The notes beneath the pieces were generated by a model. It was not told where the DNA came from, did not search any database, and saw only the letters and a program-made list of their open reading frames with translations. A DNA stretch of 64,000 bases from Crambe crambe (taxonomy: Eukaryota > Porifera > Demospongiae > Poecilosclerida > Crambeidae). Below, one piece after another: positions 1 through 55,931 of the stretch; position 1 is the stretch's first letter; every line of letters begins with the position of its first letter. The stretch covers positions 7,208,556 to 7,272,555 of the forward strand of contig OZ004585.1 in NCBI GenBank assembly GCA_963924555.1. The letters are read 5' to 3'. The position numbers were made by a program, and so were the translations under genes.

Positions 1-2922
1 TGGCCCTCAGGTTCCAAATACCGTAGATCTCTCTACTTGGTGTCTATTATATATCACCACATCTACAAACTAAAAACTAAATTATGGAGTGTATTCAAAA
101 CTACCATTTAGCATTAGTGGTAGCGTTTCTCCTTCTCCCTATCTGCTGGATGGAAGGAATTAAAATTTTACCTAGTGATGGATTTATCTGGCACCTCACA
201 CCAGCATCATTGCTATGGTGAGGTATACCATAATAACTGCCAGATGAACAGTCCACAATTCTTCTTTCAGATCCAGTACAAATCACACTATTCATCAGAA
301 TAGGTCCAACACCAGGTCCAAAAGTTTGCAATGTAACTCCTAGGAGTAAGAATATATAGTTACTAATGATGAGCTGTGGATTTCTATAAATAGTCTATCA
401 AACTAACTTGTTACTATTCCATTTGTTTGAAGCAATCCAAGTTGTCTGCAGGCCACTGTGGCACCATTGGAGTCCCATCCTCTATGAATCACAGTTCCCC
501 ACACTCCATTACTACTGCACACCTCCACTCTCCCCTCAAACTGATCCCTCCCACCAGAAAGACGTATTGCCCCAGCAGAACACTGATTTATATCTATGAA
601 TTATTATGTACATGTGCAATGATTTTGATTATTATAGGACAGCTGCATGGGTGCACTTCGAGTGACTGCACTAGCTACTTAAAATTTGTGTAAGGTCTCT
701 ATGTATTCTTGAACCTGCAGCCTATAATTAGACTATAATAGCTAGTCACAATCAAGGAATCTCATTGGTCCATTTGGTGAATTCTCTTCACTTAGAATCA
801 TGCCTTATAGCACTTAGAATTCACTTGCCCTAGTATGAAAACCCGGTAAAGATGGTCACTCCAATTGGTCCAATTCTAGCAATGCGCCACGGTTATTGTT
901 TCTAGGTGTGCTCTGATTCATATTTGTTGCATTTAAAAACCATGGTTATTGCGTGTTGAGGTAAGTTAAACAACTCCAGTGATTGGCTATAGTCTAAATA
1001 AGTTAGACACCTCGACCAACGGGATCTACGGTCTGTTTAGAAACCTTCGCACCCTCACTGCACTCGGGACGCTACAGCCCAGGGCTCTCAGGTATAAATA
1101 GACCATAGATCCCTTGGTCTCATTGTCTAACTATTATTTATAGCTAGCTAGTGCATAAGCAATCATTATAGTTATTCAGAAAGATAGCTATTTTAGTGTC
1201 ACACTGCTAAATTTTATACCTGCAAGGTTTCCTCTGCAAACAGTGATAGCTTGTCGATAAAAACCAACAGTGTTACCAAGTTGGCAATCACGCCGATTAG
1301 ACACATAGTTACAGTTGAGTAGAGAACTCTCATTTCCAATACAGTTGTAGGCATTTGTGGATGATACAAAGCTTATGTGCCTGTTTTGTAGTTTGGAAAC
1401 ATCATATGCTGTGGATACAAAGAATGAAAAGTTAGCATGACAACAGAGCCATATAATAATGAATCAATATAGCTAATCTTCATGATAATATTATGTATGC
1501 ATATACCTGCTTGAGTGGCAGGATAACCAAGTTGTTTGCACACGACAAAGGAGTTCTTATAGTTCCAAGTAGTACCACACACTCTGGACCATGCTCCACT
1601 CAGACAGACTTCAACATTACCTTGATGTGGAATGAACCCACCAGTCAAACGAACACTTCCATTTGGACCTATAAGGATATACAATGTAGGGCTAGGGGCA
1701 AGGGCTAGAGCTACCCAAGTATGCATATGTATTCTGCATATAGCTATATACCTGCATATTATGTGTATACCCATGTTTACCTGCATATACCTGTTTATGC
1801 TGTTTATGCTGTGCATGCCTACAGCTGTCTCTCATGATTGTCTGTATTATAGGCAGTGTGTGGGTGCATGTTTATAGTTCATTGAAACATTTCTGTGAAA
1901 TGAAAAAAAAGAAAAAAAAAGTAGGGATGACCATTGCTCAAAAAGTAAGCAAATATTATAAGGGTATAGGGATGAAGGGGTCAATCCTTGTTCTGTATAT
2001 CCAGAATCTGCATAGAGTACTGCACTATATCTGAAGCTTACAGTTTTAAGTGTGATGTATATCCAGGGGATATACAGAACAAAGATTGAGCCCCTTCACT
2101 ATCCTTGCTTGCTTACTATTTTGAGCAATAGTCATCCCTACACTCTTTTTTTTTTCTTTCATTTCACAGAAATATTTTCCCCCTCACTTGTTCCTGGTCT
2201 TTTTCCTCTTTTAATGGTTTATATCTGTATAGCTATTATGTAAATCCAGGAGTTCATTCTATTTCAAAGTGCAAGAAACTGTTCCTTTACCTGCTGTAGA
2301 GCTTACATGTTGGGCAGGTGATTAGAGTTGTGTAACAAAAGATCTCTCTGCGATAAGTATTGATTCTGCAATCAGCTATGGTAGCCTCATCTCCATTACA
2401 GGCGAAGAAATACTTTATAGGATTACCAGGAGGATGTGTGGTTCGCAATCCTCCTGCATGGTATGACAAAATATTGTTGGTAGCTGTATGGTGTGTAATT
2501 TGTGTACATGGGGAAAAAAATAACAACAATACACTAAGTCATGAAAAACTTTTGGCGCAATGGAGATGTACTATATGTACACATGCACTGTAAAATGTAA
2601 CTGTCGTTTACTTGAATATGAGATCCCGTTGGTGTTATATCCTAACATGCGACATACTACCGATGCAATTCTGCTGTTTAGAGGAAAACAATGGGATTGC
2701 CAGCCACCACTTCCCACAGTAATGAGTAACTGCAGTGTGCCCGTGTTGCTACTGGAGCCACCGTTCAGACGTACATGACTAATCTTAATACTTTGAGCTG
2801 ACACTGCAGGAATAGATAGTATATGAGCTAAATTGAAACAGCTTTCGCTATATAGCTAGTTACCTGAATGCTGAATTAATCCTGGAAAAGCTAACATAAC
2901 CATCAGAAAATAGACAGCCATG
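1..2922 (-). CDS. SRCR-domain secreted/receptor protein, 5' part, multi-exon
   Basis: Three scavenger-receptor cysteine-rich domains are seen on the minus strand, each split into two exons. Candidate exons: 2864-2922 (ATG at 2922; MAVYFLMVMLAFPG, a hydrophobic signal-peptide-like start), 2612-2803 and 2307-2453 (SRCR 1), 1507-1668 and 1220-1408 (SRCR 2), 415-582 and 172-339 (SRCR 3). Typical SRCR signatures are visible: VRLxGG starts, GRVEVC, WGTV, VVCKQLGY and ACRQLG, then GxESSLLNC and a late Cys. Splice sites are GT-AG. The junction of the signal exon with the next exon does not close in phase with the obvious sites, so that boundary is uncertain. The gene probably continues beyond position 1, so the 3' end, any membrane segment and the final domain count are unknown. 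SRCR proteins are extracellular and often act in recognition or aggregation. Confidence 0.8.
1890..2172. repeat. Hairpin element in an SRCR intron
   Basis: The two ends are inverted copies: TTTCTGTGAAATG with an A-run and GTAGGGATGACCATTGCTC at the left, and the reverse complement at the right; the arms also share CTGTATATCC and GAACAAxGATTGA. The same sequence family forms the hairpin part of the elements at 29,861-30,924 and 48,928-49,995. It lies in the intron between SRCR domains 1 and 2 and contains no gene. Confidence 0.7.
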
Positions 2923-8803: not shown

Positions 8804-9814
8804 ATGGCTGAAGTGGTACTTAAGAAACTAGAAGAAGAGCTCAATTGTGCCATCTGTCTGGATACTTATACTGACCCTAAGCTGCTTCAATGCTTCCATG
8901 TCTTCTGTAGGCAATGCCTTGTGAAACTTGTGGTCAGAAACCAGCAGGGACAACTCATCCTGACTTGCCCAACCTGTCGTCAGGCCACACCAATCCCTGC
9001 CAATGGAGTGGCAGGCCTCCAGACAGCATTTCATATCAACCACCTCTTGGAAATCCAGGAGTCACTCAAAGAAGCAAAAGATCCAGTAACAATGGTAACC
9101 GTAGTGAAGAATGATGAGGCACGCCCCATTATGAGAAAGAAGGTCATTCCTAACTGCTTTGAGCATGCTGATAAAGAACGAGAGCTTTACTGTGAGACTT
9201 GTGAAGACCTAATCTGCTGGAAATGCATTATGAAAGGAGGCAAGCATCATGACCATGACTATCAACCATTAAACGAAGCTTTCGAGGAGTACAAGCGAGA
9301 AATGACATCATTGCTGGAACCAATGGAGGAGAAGTTGGCCACTATAGAAGATGCACTGAAACAGTTTGATAATAGTTATGAAGAAATATCTAATCAAAGA
9401 GAAGTCATTGAAACTAACATACACAACGATATCAGAAAACTTATCAAAGTCCTTGAAGTTAGGAAGACCGAGTTGATCAGTAAACTACATCAAATAACTC
9501 AGAGGAAACTCAAAAGCTTAGCATCTCAGAGGGACCAAGTGGAGACCATCCAGGCCCAGCTACGCAGCTGTCACTATTTCGTGAAGGAGAGCATGAAAAT
9601 AGGCATTCGGGAAGAAGTGCTGATGATGAAGTCAAGGAAGTCAAGCGTAACAGGACAAGTGAAGGAACTGAGTACAGCATTTCATCCATGTTTCCTCAAG
9701 CCTAACACAGGAGCAGACATTGTATATGTAGCATCAAATGATGCTATTGCAGCATATCAGAACTATGGCCAGGTCTACACACCAGGTATGTACATTGTTC
9801 AGTCCCAAGAGTGA
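8804..9814 (+). CDS. TRIM-type RING/B-box/coiled-coil protein
   Basis: A 336-codon open frame starts at ATG 8804. Residues about 17-60 form a C3HC4 RING (CAIC, CFHVFCRQC, CPTC), about 119-160 a B-box2 (C-x2-H, CETC, CWKC, H-x2-H-x-H), and about 160-285 a long charged coiled coil with EVIETNIHNDI and QRKLKSLASQRDQVE. The RING would recruit an E2 ubiquitin-conjugating enzyme and the coiled coil would dimerise. No C-terminal recognition domain is in this exon: a clean donor (ACACCAG then GTATGT, 9780-9790) precedes the in-frame stop, so the stop is probably intronic and the true protein continues. The next plus-strand exon with a strong acceptor is the talin-like exon at 10,192, in matching phase. 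About 90% identical at DNA level to the broken copy at 5850 (estimate by eye). Confidence 0.85.
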   Translation: MAEVVLKKLEEELNCAICLDTYTDPKLLQCFHVFCRQCLVKLVVRNQQGQLILTCPTCRQATPIPANGVAGLQTAFHINHLLEIQESLKEAKDPVTMVTVVKNDEARPIMRKKVIPNCFEHADKERELYCETCEDLICWKCIMKGGKHHDHDYQPLNEAFEEYKREMTSLLEPMEEKLATIEDALKQFDNSYEEISNQREVIETNIHNDIRKLIKVLEVRKTELISKLHQITQRKLKSLASQRDQVETIQAQLRSCHYFVKESMKIGIREEVLMMKSRKSSVTGQVKELSTAFHPCFLKPNTGADIVYVASNDAIAAYQNYGQVYTPGMYIVQSQE

Positions 9815-24441: not shown

Positions 24442-27400
24442 TTACATTAAAGCACAGGATTGGCTTTCCTTTTGTTTTTTCTCCTGTTCTTGTCTTTCCT
24501 TTTCTTTTTTCTCCTGTTCTTGTCTCTCCTTTTCTTTTTTCTCCTGTTCTTGTCTTTCCTTTTCTTTTTTCTCCTGTTCTTGTCTCTCCTTTTCTTTTTT
24601 CTCCTGTTCTTGTCTTTCCTTTTCTTTTTTCACCTGTTCTTGTTTCACCTTTTTAAATTCCTTTTCTAAGTCTTGACACTGTTTCTCCTTTTCACGTTTC
24701 TCCAGTTCAAGTTTCTTCAGTTTAATATTCATCTCGAAGTCTTGACGGTTTTTATCCTGTTCAAGTTTAAGTAATTTCTTCTCTAAGTCTTGACGCTGCT
24801 TTTGAAAATCATTTTGCTGCTTTTCTAATTTCTTCTCTAAGTCTTGACGCTGTTCTTGAAAATCATTTTGCTGCTTTTCTAATTTCTTCTCTAAGTCTTG
24901 ACGCTGTTCTTTGAGCTCTTGCTGAAAATCTTTCTGCTGTTTCTCAAAATCTTTCTGCTGCTTCTCCATCATTTCCTGTTGATTATCAACCAGTTTCTTT
25001 TGCCGTTCGAAATGCTGCTCCTCCATAGTTTGCTGATGTTTCACTAGGAATTGAACTATGTCATCCTTCTTTTCTTCTTTGATCTTGGGAAGTTCATGCC
25101 GCCACGCTGTTTCTCTTCCATCTTTAGAACATGGTTTCCCAATGCTTGATATATTCCTAGTATCACTATGTATTGGATTTTCTTCATAGTAGGAAAGCAT
25201 GTCATGAATACTTCCAAATGGTTTTCCTGTACCCTCTACCTCATAACTGTCAGCACCAATTTTCATAGTAATGTGACTAAATTCAAATGTTCCCTCTTCA
25301 TGATTCTTGGTCATTATTGAGAGTACATGCTGTTTATGATTAACGCTAAACCTTGTAAGGTAGCAAGGCTTTCCTTCTCTCTTCAGCTTCATTTCAGCTT
25401 CATTTCCAGATATTGTTCCTTGGTAGGACATGTGGCCAATTTCTTCTGTTGTAGTTACTTTCAGCAACTTTGTCACCTGCAGTATGAATTTGATTAAAAA
25501 GGAGCTATTGACATTATAATTATTATATTATGAATGTAATTAGAAAGGAGCTATTGAAATTATGTTATTGTAAGTATGAATGGAGCTATTGACATATCAT
25601 ACATTTTTTTCCCCAGGTTTTGAAGAAATTACTGCACCATGGTCTTCATCTCCTTCTATGGTGAAGGCAATAACAGCATTATAACCTGTTATACTAAGCA
25701 CACTTAGCACACTGCTAAGTGTGCATTAAAGTTTCCCCAAGGTGTGCTTTATATCTGCCTTGTGTTTGAACAAATAAATGTGGTTGATGATTGAACCAGC
25801 TGATTCTTCATGCCAGGAAAGAGAGAAAGCATGAAAAGAACAAACCAGTACTCATATAAGTTTCGAGTGAGAATAAACTCAGCCTCAATGGTGTATAAAG
25901 ACTGTTCAATGATAGCTAGCTAGCTGAGTATAAAATTGAACTTGCTAGCTTTAGTTCTTGGACAGCAAGAGTGAGAAAGACTGAAACCTCTGCAATCTCT
26001 TCAATACTCTCTCCCACACCAACCCCACCCCCCTCCCCCCCCCCCCCCCCCCCCCCCCCCCATCTGGCAGGCCTGAGAAAGAATTTTTGTATGTAAAATA
26101 GGAGTAGCTACACAGCTAAACAAAAGTACGACAGCAATACTCACACAATGTCATGCAAGTTTCACTAATTTTCCACTGGGGTTTGACTAAGACTTATTAA
26201 TATACGTAAAAACTCACCTAAATCATTGGCTTTTCAAACCACTAAAATTTAATGTGACCTGTACATTGTGTGTAGCCTACAGGACTTAGTAGATTTATTT
26301 TGTGAGTTAGCTACATTATTAAGCATAGGCGTATAGGAACCACGGGGGGCTCTGGGGGCTGGAGTCCCCTTTATTTTTCTAGCAACTGGCCCCCATTCCA
26401 AGGTTTCACATATACAATTGTGCTTTGGTGAATGGAAAAGCCTCCCTTATTCAAATCATCTTCCTACGCCTATGTTAAGAACCTATATAGTGGCCAGCTA
26501 GAAGCTAGCTACGTACCATGTAATACAGCACCTCCTTGATAGTTTTGCTGGTTGGGGTTGGTTCGTAGATTTGCATCATATCCATATAGAGAAGTGGACT
26601 GTGGATAGTGTAAAGGCTCATTTGGTGACATCTCCCCTATATACATAAACAAAACTGCTAATATCCTAGTAGCAGGGAAAAAATAGACCCATAGCTCTAC
26701 TAGCCATGTAAGTAATTGGTGAAACTGTCTTGCCCATGACTCATTTTTATGCCACTGAGCATAGCTCATAAAAATAGGTGTGTTATTCATTGCAGCTGTT
26801 CAACTTTATTCATATCACAGCCATGCACATGTGATCTGCACATTTAAGGGTGCCGATACATCCCACCCACGCATGGTTACTATGGAAGAATAGCTTTAAA
26901 ACTATTTGCCTTAGAGACATCTAACTTGGACCAAGTTATTACATACTAAAATAGTACTACACACACCAAAAATGAAGAGTGCCTGATGATTTTCACAGAT
27001 GTTACAACCGATTTCATTCTCAAGGTAAACTGCGTTGCATCTCAAAGACCGCTTGGATTCTATGGCTAATTTTTGTTATGAAGCTTCCTATACATATTTC
27101 TATCAAAATTACGATGAGTTTTTGTTGATTTGTATTTTACTTTTCTATATATCCACACAAGACCATGCATTCTGGAAATTCTAGAATAGATATGAACTAA
27201 AACAAATCGTAACTTTTTAGACCTTACCTTGTAGTTATTGTACGCAAAATATTGGCTCATTCCCATGCTTGGTTCCTGAGTTGCCGTGATTTGTCTTTTA
27301 ATCATGCTAGCATGGATTTTAGATGTGCCAGAGCAGCTGCTACTATTGTAGTTTACTATCTGTTATTTTAGCGCGGTAGTGTTTGTGGTTAATTAGTGTT

Positions 27401-29325: not shown

Positions 29326-29675
29326 CTACATGTGTATAATATATGATGTATAACCTAAAATAGACGATTAAGCTGTAACTAATCTCCACAGTTCAGACCT
29401 ATAGCTATAGAAATATTATGTAATAATTCATCCATGCATGCATGCACTATCCTCAAGCTAACTCTTGGCTGAATGCCAAATCTCAATTATCTGAGCTGCT
29501 ACTATTAGCTAAGCCATGTGCAATCAGTTTGCTAGAAGCCTCACAAAATACATAACTTACCACCACTTGCCATCATTTAGCTCCCCAAGTCAAATTTCAA
29601 ATTGATGAAAATCAGAATATCCTCCTAGATGATGATGGGTGTGTCCCTAAAATGTTATTCATGATTTGAAAATTG

Positions 29676-29830
29676 TTTTATCAGAGAGTGCGCTAGCACT
29701 CTCTAAGTAGGGATGGCAGGTCAAAGGTCATTAAGACTGTATAAACTAAAAAATCTTCTTTCTCTTCTACCCTTACTCTACAGGTTCTCACAAGTCATGG
29801 CCCTATCCCTACATCTACACAGAAGACAGG
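29676..29830. repeat. Short relative of the TCAGAGAGTGC element
   Basis: Starts TCAGAGAGTGCGCTAGCACT, a small hairpin followed by GTAGGGATGG, like the 5' end of the element at 29,861. The right end is unclear. In copy B the hairpin has changed (51,495: TCAGAGAGTAGCGCACTCTC). Confidence 0.5.
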
Positions 29831-29860
29831 ACAATGTATAATAATCTAAAATTCATTCTA

Positions 29861-30924
29861 TCAGAGAGTGCGGTAGCACTCTCTATGTAGGGATGACTCG
29901 GACGGCCGCGCGCGCCGCCTATAAACTAATACTAAAGTGAAATTCTAGTTCTCCCACTTAGACCTAACAAAAGCTACTGTGAATGATTATCCAGCCTACT
30001 AGAGCCTACTACAATGTGCAGACCAAGTTTCAGGACCAGGGAGCTTACCGTTTCAGAAATACGGCAAGCAGGCAAATCGCTATATTCTTCTTCTTCTCTA
30101 TTATTATTATTATTATTATTATTATTCTTAGACAACCATATCTCTCGAACCACTCAAGCTACAGCCATGATTTCTGGACAAATCCACTCCAAATTCTACC
30201 AACTACGATCTTTTCTACTCGTTGATCCTCGAAAGAGTCGATGAAAAAGGAGACACTATGGAGCACAGCACTCGACTAATTCAATTAGGAAGCCATCTTT
30301 TCTATAATACGCATGCGCATGTATTTGAATATCCAATTATTCGAAATCATAATATTACTCAGCTGTCTCTAGCTAGCTAGCTAGCTCTAGCTGATGATAG
30401 ACTACTGTATCGATTCGGGGATTTAGATTCACCACGGTAGACTCTATTTCAGCATCTTCGACCTCCAAGTATGGCTCAACAACACAACACCTTGACTCGA
30501 TAAATGATTGGGCTGGTATGCTATTGGAGAACTTCTTTCATCTGTCCCTGCATACACATAGAAGAATGAACTCTAATCATAGCTAAAACCATAAAAGAGA
30601 GGAAAAAAGACCAGGAACAAGTAAGGGAAAAAGCATTTCGTGAAATGAAAAAAAGATGTAGGGATGACCACTGCTCAAAAAAGTAAGGAAACAAGAAGGA
30701 TGGAAATGGGATCAATCTTTGTTCTGTATATCCAGCCAACAATCCCTACATATACGTCAGGTAACTTCAGATTATAGTGTAGTAATGTGTGTATATGTAG
30801 GGATTGTTGGCTGGATATACAGAACAAAGATTGATCCCATTTCCATCCTTCTTGTTTCCTTACTTTTTTGAGCAGTGGTCATCCCTACATCTTTTTTTCA
30901 TTTCACGAAATGCTTTTTCCCTTA
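29861..30924 (+). mobile_element. Helitron-like non-autonomous element, copy A insertion
   Basis: Defined by its empty site in copy B (ATTCATTCTATAACATTT, 51,660-51,677): insertion is between A and T without target duplication. The element starts TCAGAGAGTGCGG, with a hairpin (AGAGTGCGGTAGCACTCT), and ends in CCCTTA. Its last 310 bp form a large hairpin with arms of about 135 bp (30,616-30,756 and 30,790-30,924). A-T insertion, 5' TC and a 3' hairpin are Helitron traits; the end CTTA instead of CTRR and the very long hairpin are not typical. No replicase is encoded. Confidence 0.6.
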
Positions 30925-31293
30925 TAACATTTACAAAACAAAATTTCAAAAATTGACTTTTGTTCCATAATAATAATATAATAATCAGATCGGCGTACTG
31001 ACTAACTGGCTATAGTCATCAGAATTCTGTTCGGGCCATCTGTTAGAGCGGCACCTAGAGGCTGATCTTTTGCTATTAGTTTTCACTACAGTTCCATTTC
31101 ACAATTCAGTGATTATGGAACACTAGCTAATCTTTCTTCGCCATTTTAAGGGCGGGGCCACATAGGTGCGCGCTAGCTAGAGCTGTTCAGCTTTGATACC
31201 TATACTTCAGCTAGTGTTTCAGTCATTCCTCAGTACAGATTCTCATCCTACACATAATCAGTACTTAGCTCTGTGCAGTTTGCTCACTTCACC

Positions 31294-32717
31294 ATGCCAG
31301 TGCCACCTCCAGCTGCGCACCCCCTCCCAGAAGGTAAGGAACTATGGAAATTTCTCCACTCTCACAATTACATCATCCAGTGCCACCTCCAGCTGTGCGC
31401 CCCATCCCAGAAGGTGAGCAACTACATGTATGTATAATTATCACATTCACTGCTCTTACAATTACATCATCCAGTGCCACCTCCAGCTGCGCACCCCCTC
31501 CCAGAAGGTAAAGAACTATGGAAATTTCTCCACTCTCACAATTACATCATCCAGTCCCACCTCCAGCTGTGCGCCCCATCCCAGAAGGTGAGCAACTACA
31601 TGTATGTAGAATTATCACATTCACTGCTCTTACAATTACATCATCCAGTGCCACCTCCAGCCGCGCACCCCCTCCCAGAAGGTATTAAAGCAACTATGGA
31701 AATTTCTCCACTCTCACAATTACATCATCCAGTGCCACCTCCAGCTGTGCGCCCCATCCCAGAAGGTGAGCAACTACATGTACGTATGTATAATTATCAC
31801 ATTCACTGCTCTTACAATTACATCATCCAGTGCCACCTCCACCTGCATACCACCCCCTCCCAGAAGGTAAGCAACTATGGAAATTTCTCCACTCTCACAA
31901 TTATATCTTACATCATCCAGTGCCACCTCCAGCTGTGTGCCCCATCCCAGAAGGTAAGCAACTACATGTATGTATAATTATCACATTCACTGCTCTTACA
32001 ATTACATCATCCAGTACCACCTCCAGCCGCACGCCCCCTCCCAGAAGGTAAGCACTATAGATAGCACATTTCATGATCTTACAATTACATCATCCAGTGC
32101 CACCTCCAGCTGCACGCCCCCTCCCAGAAGGTAAGGAAGATAACACATTTCATGATCTTACAATTACATCATCCAGTGCCATCTCCAGCTTCCCACCCTC
32201 ACCCAGAAGGTGCATGGAGGGGTAGGGCCAGGCGGAGGGGGAGGGGACGTCAACGGTTCTGCCCGTTCCCGTGTGAGTACATACTTAACTGTTTTCCACC
32301 AACACATAACATGCATCACCATAATCTATAATTCCAGACCCAAACATGTACAATGGAAATCGCAAGTAATATAAAACAGTACAACAGATAGCTACTCATC
32401 CTTCATGTCAGTCATACTCTCCTCCCTCAAGACAACAAAACATTCTTCAGTCCTATGCTTGCAAACAATACCGATTGCAAATTAACCCTCAGCAGGCATG
32501 CACGAGAGGGTACTTACAATACAAAAACTGCCCAATCACTCCTTATTGCACATGCCCACACACATTAATTGAAAAAAGAAAACACCAATAATTATGAAAT
32601 TTGCATGGGTATTAGCTAAGTGCAGCCATTCATTTCTTCAGGTTCTTCTTCACCACTGCACCTCATTCTCTGCCAAGTGAAGATATTGAAGCCTCTTCAT
32701 CAGTCAATCATCCCTGA
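31294..32717 (+). CDS. Micro-exon array gene A, proline-rich repeat protein
   Basis: Predicted exons: 31294-31333, 31381-31413, 31475-31507, 31555-31587, 31649-31681, 31733-31765, 31831-31866, 31921-31953, 32015-32047, 32098-32130, 32177-32272, 32338-32365, 32642-32717. Every internal repeat exon is 33 nt (one is 36), starts after CATCCAG, ends before GTAAG/GTGAG/GTATT, and joins in phase 1. Introns are 45-65 bp. The spliced frame is 540 nt (179 residues) and open: MP, then repeats VPPPAAHPLPE and VPPPAVRPIPE alternating, a basic segment (GRARRRGRGRQRF), YPNMYNGNRK, and an acidic tail LPSEDIEASSSVNHP. There is no signal peptide, so it is probably intracellular; Pro-rich repeats could bind SH3 or WW domains. 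No known family is recognised. The unspliced DNA is also partly open, but then alternate repeats are read out of frame. Confidence 0.7.
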
Positions 32718-32799
32718 CGAATATAATATTATGGGTAAATTTCAATATATATTCATTACTCAAAAGACAAAAATATATATATGTATGATAATTATTTGT

Positions 32800-37052: not shown

Positions 37053-37952
37053 CTACTTCCAACATAAATATATCACTCCAATAAAACTTAAAGCAAGAAA
37101 TCCATAACCACGATATATACAGTATCCAGCCATACCACCAATGCAAACAATAATTCCAATTATCTTTCCTTTGTCAATTTTTGGGTATTGTGGTGGAGGC
37201 TGGTAGGTGTCCATTTGTATGGGAATATATGGTTTCAGGTTCTCTGCACGTACTTTCAACATGACTGGAGCAGCTTGATTCATGATAGACTGTAGACACA
37301 TTGACCAAAATTGACCAATCCAGTCTTTACAGCCATCGGGTAGACCAACTTTAAGGTAGTGACCAGCAGGCACAAAGGACACCGTTTCGATCACATTTGC
37401 AGGAACGCCAGCCTTTTCCAATGCTTCCCTGAGCTCCTCACTCCATTTGCTCAACCTATCTTTGAAGAATGCCTGAGGGTCACTGTAGTTCAGTGGAGGC
37501 AGAACCTTATTTGCAAATGTCAGTGTAAATATCGCACCTTTCCAAAAGTTATTTCCAAATGCTTGTGTGAGACGGTCTATGGTGGTGACATCTTGCCTCT
37601 GAATGCGCATATCATCCATTTTCAAGCAATACAATATGGAATCGGCTTCTAAAATTACTCTCTCTAATGCGTGAAATTTCTCCAACTCATTGTCAGCACC
37701 AACGGTTATTCCAGGTGTATCCCAAACTTTTACGGTGATTCCATAAACTTCAACCTCATAGCTCTGGATAGCACTACTAGTCACAGATTTGATTGAATGA
37801 TTCTCAGGGGCTACCTCCGTTCCAATCAGTGAGTTTATCAGTGCAGACCTTCCAGTTGCGAGCTTGCCTATGAGTAGTATACTGATTTGGCGACGACCTT
37901 TTTTTTCAACCAAGTTTCTGGCCAGCTGTTCGGCAGGTATAAACAACGACAT
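37053..37952 (-). CDS. GIMAP/AIG1-like GTPase with altered P-loop
   Basis: One 299-codon open frame, ATG at 37,952. The G1 loop reads GKLATGRSALINSL: the Lys that binds phosphates is Arg (GRS rather than GKS). G3 is kept (VWDTPG), and the conserved box of this family is ILYCLKMDDMRIQRQD, followed by FTLTFANKV. The C-terminus from about residue 268 (IIGIIVCIGGMAGYCIY and LALSFIGVIYLCW) is hydrophobic and may anchor the protein in a membrane. AIG1-type GTPases act at organelle membranes, often in immune cells. The P-loop change may weaken nucleotide binding. Single-exon structure matches the other GTPase at 42,563. Confidence 0.8.
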   Translation of the reverse strand: MSLFIPAEQLARNLVEKKGRRQISILLIGKLATGRSALINSLIGTEVAPENHSIKSVTSSAIQSYEVEVYGITVKVWDTPGITVGADNELEKFHALERVILEADSILYCLKMDDMRIQRQDVTTIDRLTQAFGNNFWKGAIFTLTFANKVLPPLNYSDPQAFFKDRLSKWSEELREALEKAGVPANVIETVSFVPAGHYLKVGLPDGCKDWIGQFWSMCLQSIMNQAAPVMLKVRAENLKPYIPIQMDTYQPPPQYPKIDKGKIIGIIVCIGGMAGYCIYRGYGFLALSFIGVIYLCWK

Positions 37953-42562: not shown

Positions 42563-43519
42563 CTACTCTGCATAGTAACTTTTAATTTTTTCACTCAAGC
42601 CAATCCCTGTAGCTCCTCCTACTGCTCCTCCTACTACTGTTCCTACTGCTGCTATCCCCACTACTGGGGGACAAATCACTGCGCCAACTATAGCAAGAAC
42701 TACAGGTGGTCCATATACAAAACATTTGGGTATAGGAATGGACTGTCCTGATGTAGGTCCCCTCGAGTCTTCTTTCTTCATCTGGTCTTCAGGCTTAAAT
42801 CGGTGATAATTTGCCAAGAGAAGACCAACTTGTGGGAGTGTGCTCATTTTGAATAGACAAGCAAAAAATAAAGGCGATAACCAATTTTCCCTGTCTGGGA
42901 GATTGGGTTCACTCGAATGCCCAGCTGGGACTAAACAAATTTTGCCAGCTACTTCTTTAGATACACCAGACTCCATTAGTGACTCACTAAGTACAGATTT
43001 CCACTCGTCCATACGATAATTGAAATGTTCCTTTTCACTTTTTTTTTTTTTCATTTGTGGTGGTAGGGATACTCTATTTGCAAATGTGAGAACAAAGAGA
43101 GTATGGTTCCACAAATCTTTACCAAATCCTTTTGTTAGTTTCTCTATAGCTTGCTTATCATCTTCCCTCAATCGAGTTTCATCCATTCTTGTGCAGTACA
43201 AGACCAAATCTGCATCACCACAACCTTCATTTTGCATTTTCTGTATATAGTTCGTATCCGTAGTGTCTTGAAGACCAGGAGTGTCCCATATCACCATTTT
43301 TACACCATTATATGATACAGCTATTGGTTTCACTTCAGTTGTGCATCGTTTCAGGCCTCCTCCTTCTTCTGTAACTTCGTTTCCTACAATTCCATTTATC
43401 ACAGCCGATTTACCTGTTCCAGTTTTGCCAGTGATTAGAATCCGTACAGGTCTTTCTTCCGTCCAGTCTTTTGGAAGAATTTTCTTGAGTTTTTCCTTGA
43501 GTTTTTCCTTGAGAGACAT
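42563..43519 (-). CDS. GIMAP/AIG1-like GTPase
   Basis: One 318-codon open frame, ATG at 43,519. A Lys-rich amphipathic start (MSLKEKLKEKLKKILPKDW) precedes an intact P-loop GKTGTGKSAVINGI, then the switch region EEGGGLKRCTTEVKP, the G3 box VIWDTPGLQD, the family box LVLYCTRMDETRLREDD and FVLTFANRV. The C-terminal part from about residue 275 is Val/Gly-rich and hydrophobic (VYGPPVVLAIVGAVICPPVV, VGTVVGGAVGGATGIGL), suggesting membrane insertion. It is clearly related to the copy at 37,053 but keeps the phosphate-binding Lys. Expected role: nucleotide-controlled assembly on membranes. Confidence 0.88.
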   Translation of the reverse strand: MSLKEKLKEKLKKILPKDWTEERPVRILITGKTGTGKSAVINGIVGNEVTEEGGGLKRCTTEVKPIAVSYNGVKMVIWDTPGLQDTTDTNYIQKMQNEGCGDADLVLYCTRMDETRLREDDKQAIEKLTKGFGKDLWNHTLFVLTFANRVSLPPQMKKKKSEKEHFNYRMDEWKSVLSESLMESGVSKEVAGKICLVPAGHSSEPNLPDRENWLSPLFFACLFKMSTLPQVGLLLANYHRFKPEDQMKKEDSRGPTSGQSIPIPKCFVYGPPVVLAIVGAVICPPVVGIAAVGTVVGGAVGGATGIGLSEKIKSYYAE

Positions 43520-49995: not shown

Positions 49996-51905
49996 TTATG
50001 AGCTTTTAAAGAGGGTGAACAATAAATAGTGCCAAAATTTAGAAATCACATGTGCAACCATAGTTCGCCATGCTTTCTTAAATCAGAATTACAACTTCAT
50101 TATTCTAATTAGTGGGTGGATGAATACCACATAACTTGCAGCAATTTCAATTTCACACTTCATTAGAGTAATGATTGAAATTGCTGTGGTATTCATCCAC
50201 CCACTAATTAGAATAATGAAGTATGAAATTGCTGCAATTATATGTGGTATTCATCCACCCTGAGAACTACAGTGAGTCATGCTTTGAATAACCTAATGGT
50301 GCTGCACATTCACACAGATGAAACTGATAGTTTATCCAAGTTCAGTTGCAAATTAATTTGTTGGTAGTAGAGAAGGTAGACTTAGATCATTTTGATAAAT
50401 TTGATTCTCCAGATTGTACTGGATTGAATCTGAGACACCCTAAAATCTAAAAAAAAATTTCTGGGCCTAGATGGTGCACTTTGCACAGATGTGGTCACAA
50501 GCTGTACCACTATAAAATAATAGCTAGCTCCTGCCCTGTATACATGGAAAATTTTAAATTTTGGCTCACTTCTGACCAAACCACACCCAAATAACAACTA
50601 GATCAACTGTAGCTTAGCTTCATGATTCTGTTCTTGTCTAGCTACATGTAGTCTTTCTCTGGCTCAAAATATGTCTTTAATTTACCATGTGGCTCTTTCA
50701 TTTAAAACATAATAATCATCTACACTATATTGTACCATGCAGTGAGTATACTAATGGAAAAGGGGGGCCCAGGTCCCTTAGGCCCCTACCTGGATCAGCC
50801 CCTGTCAGCACTTGGCTTATCTAAGTACTCTGTCTACGTATGTATGCAGCTGGCTGGCTGAAACCACCCAACTTATATTACTCAACAGCAAAATCTTGTA
50901 AGCACAAATGAGTTGGAGTCTATCATCTCTAGGAATACTTTACTTGCTCACTCACTTGCTGTCAAATGTAGCACATTGCCCTATAGTACTCTCATTTGAT
51001 CACCCTAGTTATGTGTCAAAAGGGTAATTGAACACCTACCAGTAGGTTGAGTTGAACCAGGCATGTGGTCATATGAAGGATGTCTGCTATTGTATGGACC
51101 AGGCATACTTGCTGGATATTGGTTTCTGTGATGTTCACCTACATGTGTATAATATATGATGTATAACCTAAAATAGACGATTAAGCTGTAACTAATCTCC
51201 ACAGTTCAGACCTATAGCTATAGAAATATTATGTAATAATTCATCCATGCATGCATGCACTATCCTCAAGCTAACTCTTGGCTGAATGCCAAATCTCAAT
51301 TATCTGAGCTGCTACTATTAGCTAAGCCATGTGCAATCAGTTTGCTAGAAGCCTCACAAAATACATAACTTACCACCACTTGCCATCATTTAGCTCCCCA
51401 AGTCAAATTTCAAATTGATGAAAATCAGAATATCCTCCTAGATGATGATGGGTGTGTCCCTAAAATGTTATTCATGATTTGAAAATTGTTTTATCAGAGA
51501 GTAGCGCACTCTCTAAGTAGGGATGGCAGGTCAAAGGTCATTAAGACTGTATAAACTAAAAAATCTTCTTTCTCTTCTACCCTTACTCTACAGGTTCTCA
51601 CAAGTCATGGCCCTATCCCTACATCTACACAGAAGACAGGACAATGTATAATAATCTAAAATTCATTCTATAACATTTACAAAACAAAATTTCAAAAATT
51701 GACTTTTGTTCCATAATAATAATATAATAATCAGATCGGCGTACTGACTAACTGGCTATAGTCATCAGAATTCTGTTCGGGCCATCTGTTAGAGCGGCAC
51801 CTAGAGGCTGATCTTTTGCTATTAGTTTTCACTACAGTTCCATTTCACAATTCAGTGATTATGGAACACTAGCTAATCTTTCTTCGCCATTTTAAGGGCG
51901 GGGCC

Positions 51906-53470
51906 TGTAATGCAAAATCCGGTCCCCCACCAAAAGTGGTCCCCCCCGGACCAAAAGTAGCTGCCAAAAACCGTCCCCCCTTGCAAAAATTGGTCCCCTT
52001 GCGCAACCGTGCGCAATAATACAGCGTGCTCGGCTAGTTCTCTGTCATTTTTGGTGTCTGGCTGTGTCATGGATTCATGCTCTGAGACTGAAGAAGATAG
52101 AGAAGCTGTATTGGTGAGGGATGCGGTGCAATACCTTCAGAATGCTATTTACCCTCCAGGTAATGCAACTACTAACTAGAGTCTATTGCTAGCCATACAG
52201 TACAGCCAGTAGTAAATCAGCTTGAGATTGTAGATACCTATATCACCACCCGTGCTAACGTTCTTTGTAGGAGCTACTAAGAATGAAAAGAGGGTCATTT
52301 ATAGAAAGGCAGAGAGAATTATTGTGAGAAAGGGTGAAGTATTTTTCAAGAAGAAAGGTGGAGAGCAAGTGAGTTATACTGTAAATCTGCATGCATAGCT
52401 ACCTGCAATAAAAATGTTAAAACATAAATATGTGTAGTTACTATCTCAAGTTGCATTTTGCTACAGGTGCATTAGCTATATCTCAGAGAGGGAAGAAAGA
52501 TTGAGAATTTTGGAGTCTTGCCACTCAGAGCCAACTTCTGGACACCTAAGGTTGAAGAAAACAGTGGCACGTATTAATGAGAGATTCATTTGGCCTGGAA
52601 TCATAAAAGATGTTAATGAATTTGTGAGTTATAATTCTGTCAATATAATTTATTCTGTGCTACCAGCATGCAAGCAATGGTCATAATATTAGCTATATCA
52701 TTTTGGTGATGGCATAGGTTGACAAATGTGACGCTTGCCAGAGGTATCGGCACAACCATGCAAAATTAAAAATGACCACTCAAATTAGCCAGTGCATGCA
52801 AGGCCATGGTGACCAGACATTTTGAGATTGTTATTTTGAACCCTGTAGGTGGGTACGATTGTGGACTTTTTGCACTTGCATCAGCATGTACAATGGCCAG
52901 GACCCCTCGACTGTCAGATTTGACCAGGCAATGATGCGGCAACATTTGATAGATGGGTTGTCAAACAAACTGTTAATGCCATTCCCTGGGAAAATTAAAA
53001 GGCGTGTGAAGAAGCTTGTACCAGCAAGAACAGAGGTGGTCATGGTGTACTGCACATGCAGACTGCCGGATGATGGACACAAGATGGTTGAGTGTTACCA
53101 ATGTAAAGAATGGTACCACACAAGTTGTGTCAAGATTCCCAGAACATATATAGACAATCGGAAGAAGTGGAACTGTGGTAGATGTATAATAGATGTAGCT
53201 ATAATAATTTTAATAATAATTATAGTGAGGCCATGCCCTATACTGTATAATTTTTTTTTTCTCTTAGCTGTGTTGAGATTATGAGTTGGGGGACTTACTT
53301 CAGTATGGAGGGGGACCATTTTTTGCTGCCAATTTTGGTCCGGGAGGGGGACCATAATTTGCTTGGGGGGACTGTATTTGGCAGCCAATTTTGGTCCGGG
53401 GGACTGATTTTGGCAGCTACTTTTGGTCCGGGGGGACCGCTTTTGGGGGGGGACCGGATTTCGCGTGACA
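51906..53470 (+). mobile_element. Ginger-like DNA transposon, internally deleted
   Basis: About 60-bp inverted repeats begin TGTAATGCAAAATCCGGTCC and TGTCACGCGAAATCCGGTCC (complement). A 4-bp target GGCC is duplicated (51,902-51,905 and 53,471-53,474); copy A shows the single GGCC at the empty site (31,157-31,160). TGTNA ends, 4-bp duplication and a Gypsy-integrase-like H2C2 finger with Ulp1 and PHD parts fit Ginger1. The DDE integrase core is absent. Confidence 0.85.
52069..53200 (+). pseudogene. Ginger integrase remnant: H2C2 finger, Ulp1 end, PHD finger
   Basis: Pieces: 52,069-52,159 (MDSCSETEEDREAVLVRDAV), 52,271-52,368, 52,467-52,623 and about 52,718-52,770. The last two form an H2C2 zinc finger (LESCHSEPTSGHLRLKKTVA, ERFIWPGIIKDV, CDACQRYRH). 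After a deletion the text resumes with the end of a Ulp1 cysteine protease (YDCGLFALASACT, then after a frameshift GQDPSTVRFDQAMMRQHLID), then a PHD finger (YCTCRLPDDGHKMVECYQCK, EWYHTSCVKIP, WNCGRC; 53,045-53,190). Phases do not all agree, so it is not functional. Confidence 0.75.
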
Positions 53471-53608
53471 GGCCACATAGGTACGCGCTAGCTAGAGCTG
53501 TTCAGCTTTGATACCTATACTTCAGCTAGTGTTTCAGTCATTCCTCAGTACAGATTCTCATCCTACACATAATCAGTACTTAGCTCTGTGCAGTTTGCTC
53601 ACTTCACC

Positions 53609-55215
53609 ATGCCAGTGCCACCTCCAGCTGCGCACCCCCTCCCAGAAGGTAAGGAACTATGGAAATTTCTCCACTCTCACAATTACATCATCCAGTGCCA
53701 CCTCCAGCTGTGCACCTCATCCCAGAAGGTGAGCAACTACATGTATGTAGAATTATCACATTCACTGCTCTTACAATTACATCATCCAGTGCCACCTCCA
53801 GCTGCGCACCCCCTCCCAGAAGGTAAGGAACTATGGAAATTTCTCCACTCTCACAATTACATCATCCAGTGCCACCTCCAGCTGTGCACCTCATCCCAGA
53901 AGGTGAGCAACTACATGTATGTAGAATTATCACATTCACTGCTCTTACAATTACATCATCCAGTGCCACCTCCAGCTGCGCACCCCCTCCCAGAAGGTAA
54001 GGAACTATGGAAATTTCTCCACTCTCACAATTACATCATCCAGTCCCACCTCCAGCTGTGCGCCCCATCCCAGAAGGTGAGCAACTACATGTATGTAGAA
54101 TTATCACATTCACTGCTCTTACAATTACATCATCCAGTGCCACCTCCAGCCGCGCACCCCCTCCCAGAAGGTATTAAAGCAACTATGGAAATTTCTCCAC
54201 TCTCACAATTACATCATCCAGTGCCACCTCCAGCTGTGCGCCCCATCCCAGAAGGTGAGCAACTACATGTATGTATAATTATCACATTCACTGCTCTTAC
54301 AATTACATCATCCAGTGCCACCTCCACCCGCATGCCACCCCCTCCCAGAAGGTAAGCAACTATGGAAATTTCTCCACTCTCACAATTATATCTTACATCA
54401 TCCAGTGCCACCTCCAGCTGTGCGCCCCATCCCAGAAGGTAAGCAACTACATGTATGTATAATTATCACATTCACTGCTCTTACAATTACATCATCCAGT
54501 ACCACCTCCAGCCGCACGCCCCCTCCCAGAAGGTAAGCACTATAGATAGCACATTTCATGATCTTACAATTACATCATCCAGTGCCACCCCCAGCTGCAC
54601 GCCCCCTCCCAGAAGGTAAGGAAGATAACACATTTCATGATCTTACAATTACATCATCCAGTGCCATCTCCAGCTTCCCACCCTCACCCAGAAGGTGCAT
54701 GGAGGGGTAGGGCCAGGGCCAGGCGGAGGGGGAGGGGACGTCAACGGTTCTGCCCGTTCCCGTGTGAGTACATACTTAACTGTTTTCCACCAACACATAA
54801 CATGCATCACCATAATCTATAATTCCAGACCCAAACATGTACAATGGAAATCGCAAGTACGTAATATAAAACAGTACAACAGATAGCTACTCATCCTTCA
54901 TGTCAGTCATACTCTCCTCCCTCAAGACAATAAAACATTCTTCAGTCCTATGCTTACAAACAATACCGATTGCAAATTAACCCTCAGCAGGCATGCACGA
55001 GAGGGTACTTACAATACAAAAACTGCCCAATCACTCCTTATTGCACATGCCCACACACATTAATTGAAAAAAGAAAACACCAATAATTATGAAATTTGCA
55101 TGGGTATTAGCTAAGTGCAGCCATTCATTTCTTCAGGTTCTTCTTCACCACTGCACCTTCTCATTCTCTGCCAAGTGAAGATATTGAAGCCTCTTCATCA
55201 GTCAATCATCCCTGA
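53609..55215 (+). CDS. Micro-exon array gene B, proline-rich repeat protein
   Basis: Fifteen predicted exons: 53609-53648, 53696-53728, 53790-53822, 53870-53902, 53964-53996, 54044-54076, 54138-54170, 54222-54254, 54316-54351, 54406-54438, 54500-54532, 54583-54615, 54662-54763, 54829-54856, 55137-55215. All joins are in phase; the spliced frame is 615 nt, 204 residues. It has two more 33-nt exons than gene A, through one more copy of a 174-bp unit (33 + 47 + 33 + 61). Further differences are a 6-nt insertion in the basic segment and a 3-nt insertion (one Ser) in the last exon; all keep the frame. Some units have changed sequence (AVHLIPE). The Ginger-like element sits about 140 bp upstream of the start codon and may affect its promoter. 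Confidence 0.7.
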
Positions 55216-55399
55216 CGAATATAACATTCAAAATTAATCATTGAGCTTTTCTTAGCATAATTATATTTGGAAATAACTACTTCTTATGAATATGAATAAT
55301 ACACAAGTATTGTTATATAATCTTCCATATCCAGTGCTATGTACTTACCAAAGAGGAACATTTCAATTTATATAGCTAATTACAAAGAAAAAGAATGGA

Positions 55400-55931
55400 A
55401 ACAAGTGAATGCAAAAAATTTCTTCTAAATAAAAAGTGAAGTAGGGATAGCAGTAAAATTTAGCTGCATTCCTATCACTCCTACCCCTCCTAAAATTTCA
55501 ATATCCACGCCCATAGCTATATACACCCAACTTAAATCCCTACTCTTCACTCCCCCTTCAGCAATAAGTGAGTCAAGTAACCCCTTACCCGTACCCATCA
55601 CCAAACTCAAGAATCACAGCAATAATATTATTACAAAACTACTATTCCTACTTCACTCCTAGCCTCCTTAGGAGTGAAGTAGGAATAGTAGTTTTGTAAT
55701 AATATTATTGCTGTGATTCTTGAGTTTGGTGATGGGTACGGGTAAGGGGTTACTTGACTCACTTATTGCTGAAGGGGGAGTGAAGAGTAGGGATTTAAGT
55801 TGGGTGTATATAGCTATGGGCGTGGATATTGAAATTTTAGGAGGGGTAGGAGTGATAGGAATGCAGCTAAATTTTACTGCTATCCCTACTTCACTTTTTA
55901 TTTAGAAGAAATTTTTTGCATTCACTTGTTG
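55400..55931. mobile_element. Near-perfect palindrome, arms of about 262 bp
   Basis: 55,400-55,661 and 55,669-55,931 are almost exact inverted copies around a 7-bp centre; they encode the same 61-residue shadow frame on opposite strands. Both arms contain GAAGTAGGGATAGCAG. A transcript would fold into one long hairpin. Probably a foldback element; flanking target duplication not clear. Confidence 0.9.

Follow-up and report, generated by a model that had tools for sequence, protein, structure and literature searches.

Collagen genes contain arrays of regular symmetric exons with one repeat module in each, and gene pieces captured by Helitrons are usually recent fragments. In the micro-exon genes (MEGs) of Schistosoma mansoni, as the relevant passages of three papers describe them, most coding sequence lies in symmetric exons of 36 nucleotides (nt) or less that can be dropped without a change of frame (PMC4350168, PMC4015677, PMC8293314). 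Here we describe a locus in the sponge Crambe crambe, within a stretch of 64,000 nt (contig OZ004585.1, positions 7,208,556 to 7,272,555, forward strand; hereafter the window). The locus is best explained, with a probability of about 0.75, as a putative protein-coding micro-exon gene with predicted splicing and as the cargo of a non-autonomous Helitron2-like rolling-circle transposon. Both the micro-exon array and its terminal exons are contained in elements that are dispersed and have their ends in common. The closest analogues appear to be the schistosome MEGs for structure and gene-carrying non-autonomous Helitrons for location; in the part of the literature covered, no report joining Helitron, microexon and tandem repeat was found under this wording.

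In the first of two element copies in the window (copy 1; Table 1), positions 31294-32209 hold 11 repeat units of 33 or 36 nt separated by spacers of 46-65 nt. At the DNA level each unit follows the pattern TGCCACCTCCAGCTG....CCCAGAAG and encodes the peptide VPPPAxxPxPE. The preliminary description of this DNA had proposed one such repeat per exon, with canonical borders and phase 1 joins, and both proposals are borne out for the array: the ten introns (47, 61, 47, 61, 51, 65, 54, 61, 50 and 46 nt in order) all begin with GT and end with CAG, and every exon join is in phase 1. Tandem Repeats Finder scored the array at 1290, with a 174-bp dimer unit, and detected another such array at 53612-54696. 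Given this score, and given that the pattern is kept in copies elsewhere in the genome, the array is not a product of chance.

As in the schistosome genes, so far as the cited passages describe them, most of the predicted coding sequence lies in symmetric exons of at most 36 nt: exons 2-10 (300 nt; each 33 nt, bar one of 36 nt) and exon 12 (24 nt), the longer ones being exon 1 (40 nt) and exon 11 (96 nt). In contrast to those genes, the one described here lies inside a mobile element, its exons are near-identical copies of one repeat, and inspection by eye of the predicted start, MPVPPPAAHPLPE, revealed no evident signal peptide. Because no signal peptide is evident and the gene is transposon cargo, we do not class it as a schistosome-type MEG; the likeness described here is one of architecture. 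An earlier comparison with collagen exon arrays does not extend beyond the regular symmetric exons, since the repeat is VPPPAxxPxPE rather than Gly-X-Y and the array is mobile and multicopy.

The + strand is also open when left unspliced, for 167 amino acids in copy 1 and 255 in copy 2, because the dimer formed with the A and B types of intron measures 174 nt, a multiple of three; an open frame alone is therefore no proof of splicing. An array that is coding but unspliced, read as a 58-amino-acid tandem repeat through the supposed introns, would account for these open stretches, but other spacings break such a frame, introns shorter than 70 nt (n = 194) being divided 43/83/68 across the residues modulo 3. 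Codon conservation downstream also follows the spliced phase, and we consider the unspliced alternative very improbable.

The locus is not a single-copy gene: searches in the 143-Mb genome to which the window belongs (119 contigs) showed the sequence to be dispersed. A 1.6-kb query gave at least 83 matches (40 of 673 candidates scored), and the peptide of exon 11 (exon n, the first non-repeat exon) was found at 60 places at E<=10, 56 of them at E<=0.001. The terminal-exon pattern matched 56 times with up to three mismatches, compared to once in the control. We distinguish subfamily 1, the window type, from subfamily 2 (L029-L031, L043, L045 and L046); 39 of the 56 pattern matches are exact, of which 21 have the form of subfamily 2 and 18 that of subfamily 1. 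Copies are spread across many contigs. This multicopy nature and the second copy in the window (53.6-55.9 kb) had been overlooked in the preliminary description, whose gene reading stands in so far as comparison of the copies supports a micro-exon gene, though as cargo of a dispersed Helitron2-like element and not as an ordinary locus.

We examined 20 copies with their flanks (L009-L028), 13 more in part, the two window copies and a distant relative, L047. A sharp 5' end, at which TCAGAGAGTGCGGTAGCACTCTCTAAGTAGGGATG follows an A, is common to 11 copies listed, and that of copy 1 is identical in type. As aligned, the A precedes the TC start in ten of these 11, and the eleventh carries a small duplication. 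The 3' end reads ..ATCCCTACTTCACTTTTTATTTAGAAGAAATTTTTTGCATTCACTTGT, except that five of 16 copies listed stop at GCATTCA instead. Flanks outside the element are mostly unrelated; the exceptions are the window copies, which share flanks, and the pair L017 and L018, which probably arose by duplication. By eye, no target-site duplication was seen in six copies with both ends (L010, L011, L015, L017, L019 and L025). The tandem repeat in which L011 is located seems to reveal the empty site.

The 5' end motif has 2183 matches in the genome and none in a reversed control, the 3' end motif 469 and none in its control, and the gene-bearing elements are therefore one branch of a large family. On contig C1 the 5' motif is often repeated head to tail at a spacing of ~230 nt, which suggests tandem arrays of very short elements. 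A host micro-exon gene family spread by other means, with incidental Helitron-like ends, would fit the presence of the gene in both subfamilies and selection on its protein (see below). This explanation is quite unlikely, as the copies share sharp outer ends amid mostly unrelated flanks and the end motifs are far commoner than the gene exons (56-60).

Both subfamilies carry the same gene, in which the array is followed by exon n, a 24-nt exon and a final exon that holds the stop codon, and the predicted C-terminal tails end in ..FCPFPYPNMYNGNLHFHYHGR and ..FCPFPYPNMYRGNLHFHYHQK, respectively. The start region of exon 1, TTCACCATGCCAG, was found in 20 of the 27 subfamily-1 copies counted. Over the three terminal exons, the proportions of silent (pS) and replacement (pN) sites that differ between subfamilies are 0.58 and 0.15, corresponding to silent and replacement divergences of dS ~1.12 and dN 0.16, among 72 pairs from 12 subfamily-1 and six subfamily-2 copies with intact terminal exons; since copies with broken terminal exons were excluded, pN may be slightly lowered. 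Within the two subfamilies pS is 0.042 and 0.025, and pN 0.018 and 0.019. With dN well below dS, these values suggest that the protein has been kept by selection between the subfamilies. Elements carrying gene sequence are also reported among gene-capturing Helitrons of maize, fungi and silkworm, in the accounts available; here, in contrast, one gene has been retained in diverged subfamilies, with dN lower than dS.

From 25 copies, 240 array exons were recovered, of which 232 have a length divisible by three and eight break the frame; GT follows 239 of them. The exon finder needed the start and end motifs of the repeat and a following G but left length free. Three 45-nt exons of L029-L031 reflect a mis-set start, the true length being 33 nt. 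The number of recognised repeat units per copy ranges from six to 19. In L016, L017, L018 and L023 an exon of 37 nt carries an additional CTAG-like insert and breaks the frame; close to it is an intron of 38 nt.

In L047 the terminal exons are fused, both terminal introns being precisely absent and the frame kept. It reads FCPFPYPKFHNGNLHYH without introns, with 13 of 17 residues identical (E 3e-10 for that single comparison), and is either an old processed copy or the descendant of a form without terminal introns.

Helitrons with central tandem repeats are common, and some published papers mention the two together. The array could thus be merely a central satellite-like repeat of a non-autonomous Helitron, its exon look arising accidentally from GT and CAG within the repeat, and the apparent neutrality of rare array-exon variants would agree with this. 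It is nevertheless an unlikely explanation: exon lengths keep their value modulo 3 while intron lengths do not, the terminal exons have dN well under dS, and L047 lacks exactly the two terminal introns. In addition, the A and B introns are similar mainly at their ends. In six pairwise comparisons of intron types the last 22 nt agree at 20-21 positions, compared to 11 of 27 in the middle of A and B.

We are moderately sure that the element is a non-autonomous Helitron2-like rolling-circle transposon. It has a 5' hairpin and an asymmetric terminal inverted repeat (ATIR), AAGTAGGGAT/ATCCCTACTT, whose second half sits ~38 nt short of the 3' end wherever a copy retains that end in full. The last ~50 nt of the 3' end show no hairpin of their own (DNA fold z 0.52), only a foldback with arms of ~265 nt, which is unusual among Helitron-like ends. 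Features shared with non-autonomous Helitron2 or Helentron elements, including DINE and HINE, are the TCAG start, the 5' hairpin, the ATIR, many copies and the lack of a visible target-site duplication; in the relevant passages of PMC5148889, the first three are among the Helitron2-type features. Unlike those elements, this one has a long 3' foldback and carries a gene apparently under purifying selection between subfamilies, and its target and 3' end are not of the TT/TTTT type given in the source passages. The genome contains 67 Helitron Rep-domain matches. Among the exact matches listed, the 5' motif lies upstream of two of the three Rep loci on contig C1, 4.0-4.1 kb away and on their strand.

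Several observations weigh against a spliced gene carried by a Helitron2-like element. Rare variants of the array exons fit neutrality (10 silent and 23 replacement; expected silent 25.5%, p 0.55), and at present selection therefore probably does not act on most copies. Individual copies are probably in decay, which is to be expected where selection acts on rare source elements only. The donor ends of the introns are less alike than the acceptor ends (6-11 of the first 12 nt over six pairs), and the middle of one pair agrees at 14 of 18 positions. L047 is a single locus, and the join patterns fitted to it gave one further match with a single mismatch (control 1) and two further exact matches (control 0). 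No intronless array copy was found, the array exon-exon join having no match in the genome at up to one mismatch; L047 therefore bears only on the terminal joins. The first array exon of subfamily 2 has no ATG, and a Pfam search with an illustrative composite query gave no match. The copies end in CACTTGT(A)(A) or GCATTCA and not in the CTRR of canonical Helitron1, and the linkage to Rep is known from one contig only. Finally, both transcription and splicing are putative, and the gene structure is a predicted one.

The two subfamilies diverge in a pattern that follows the predicted exons. Mean divergence is 0.22, 0.33 and 0.39 in the three terminal exons and 0.046 and 0.050 in the two introns between them (27 x 6 copies, wherever the segment is present). 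Differences in the terminal exons are mostly silent, ~58% of silent sites being affected. In a comparison of 5 x 6 copies, fixed differences occupy 32 of 143 exon columns and 99 of 1301 noncoding columns (p 2.5e-7), and polymorphism within subfamilies 12 of 143 and 73 of 1301, respectively (p 0.19). Divergence drops to the noncoding level at the stop codon and is raised again in blocks 200-500 nt downstream of it, with 14-17% fixed differences. Average identity in the noncoding 3' body is ~92%; it falls to 83% in some blocks, and indels are numerous. A degenerate copy of a third lineage, L044, diverges from subfamily 1 in the same direction, with 0.23, 0.17 and 0.08 in exons and 0.00 and 0.03 in introns, part of its intron 1 being missing.

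It is doubtful, if conceivable, that this pattern reflects exon-limited rewriting, in which the terminal exons are recoded while the introns stay ~95% identical. The cause could be selection for a new spelling at near-constant protein, for instance to evade small-RNA silencing or some other defence based on sequence, or conversion by an intronless spliced copy, which would convert exons and leave introns as unpaired loops. Each fits part of the pattern, and neither is favoured. Small-RNA escape is weakened by the drop in divergence at the stop codon and by the array, which makes up most of the mRNA and is not visibly accelerated, since one array exon is identical in both subfamilies. A higher exon mutation rate or CpG decay is disfavoured, given that exons and noncoding sequence show no significant difference in polymorphism within subfamilies and that both forms of the last exon lack CpG. 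Whole-segment recombination is unlikely because divergence alternates exon by exon.

The predicted protein is mostly of low complexity. VPPPAxxPxPE repeats would be followed by an Arg/Gly-rich segment and then by a conserved Cys/His tail, FCPFPYPNMYNGNLHFHYHGR in subfamily 1. A PDB search with the C-terminal part found no convincing relative; a single entry, which aligned over 19 residues in the basic stretch at E 0.022, was attributed to composition. Transcription would be driven by the 5' region of the element itself, and splicing would join the 33/36-nt symmetric exons into one mRNA. Because unit exons are symmetric (phase 1-1), units can be gained, lost or skipped without breaking the frame. 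Unequal exchange or slippage may add or drop units, or splicing may skip them, so that repeat number alone would change. Rep/helicase would be supplied in trans by autonomous Helitrons of the genome. Tentatively, the protein may aid the element itself; being basic and Arg/Gly-rich, it could perhaps bind nucleic acids.

Both window copies have lost the last coding exon (..LHFHYHGR and stop) to a deletion of ~550 bp. The preliminary description had extended the gene by two more 3' exons, up to 32717, which gave a frame of 540 nt, but this is one of 22 open 540-nt solutions when GT or GC donors and AG acceptors are allowed. Other copies have exon 12 followed by the last coding exon; as the latter is deleted in both window copies, the 3' exons proposed there are not the conserved ones. 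By read-through past exon 12, copy 1 has a predicted end of ..YPNMYNGNRK and a stop, at 155 amino acids. The donor of exon 12 is GC in both window copies and GT in the other copies compared, bar L044. The window copies may be derived, possibly non-functional members of the family. Since they share a 5' flank (29620-29680 and 51440-51492, ~22 kb apart), they are probably a local duplication and not independent insertions.

Table 1. Features of the two element copies in the window
Feature	Position	Strand	Basis or remark
Copy 1, from 5' end (TC after A) to 3' truncation, where it loses its 3' end; interrupted ~29861-30922	29681..32730	+	Homology to L009 and others at 29679-29861 and 30923-32730
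Copy 1, 5' terminal hairpin, 9-bp stem	29683..29704	+	DNA fold -9.6 kcal/mol, z -4.68, 0/200 shuffles as good
Copy 1, AAGTAGGGAT, 5' half of the ATIR	29705..29714	+	
Predicted exon 1 (40 nt: ATGCCAG + 33-nt unit)	31294..31333	+	ATG in context TTCACCATGC
Predicted exons 2-10	31381-31413, 31475-31507, 31555-31587, 31649-31681, 31733-31765, 31831-31866, 31921-31953, 32015-32047, 32098-32130	+	
Predicted exon 11 (exon n): final repeat unit joined to Arg/Gly-rich segment, end FCPFP	32177..32272	+	Frame kept between subfamilies
Predicted exon 12 (exon n+1), 24 nt, encoding YPNMYNGN	32338..32361	+	Copy comparison
Junction of ~550-bp deletion removing the last coding exon	32381..32384	+	Segment present in L012, L013, L014, L020 and others
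Copy 2: 5' end 51493-51905, ~1.6-kb insertion, then 53528-55930 with full 3' end	51493..55930	+	
Copy 2, predicted gene: ATG 53609, 13 repeat units, exon n 54662-54763, exon n+1 54829-54852; last exon deleted too	53609..54852	+	
Copy 2, 3' foldback, arms ~265 nt, ending ..TTTTTTGCATTCACTTGT; inverted-repeat partner at 55882-55891	55401..55930	+	

The insert of copy 1 is a separate element of ~1.06 kb. Its 5' end (..TATGTAGGGATGACTCG) closely resembles that of the host element, and its interior holds a long palindrome; L017 and L018 hold sequence similar to it. The insertion in copy 2 (51905-53528) contains an open reading frame at 52859-53284 (+) with a PHD finger (Pfam E 3.9e-9). Neighbouring frames at 37053-37952 (-), 42563-43519 (-), 8804-9814 (+), 1373-1816 (-) and 24442-25476 (-) show matches to AIG1-type GTPases, RING/B-box, SRCR and SH2, an animal-like gene content.

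If it is spliced as predicted, this would be a mobile element with a self-expanding micro-exon gene as cargo, and a natural experiment on the origin of micro-exon arrays and their tolerance by the splicing machinery. Should the exon-limited silent divergence hold in more subfamilies, it would provide a case in which selection or gene conversion confined to spliced sequence could be tested.
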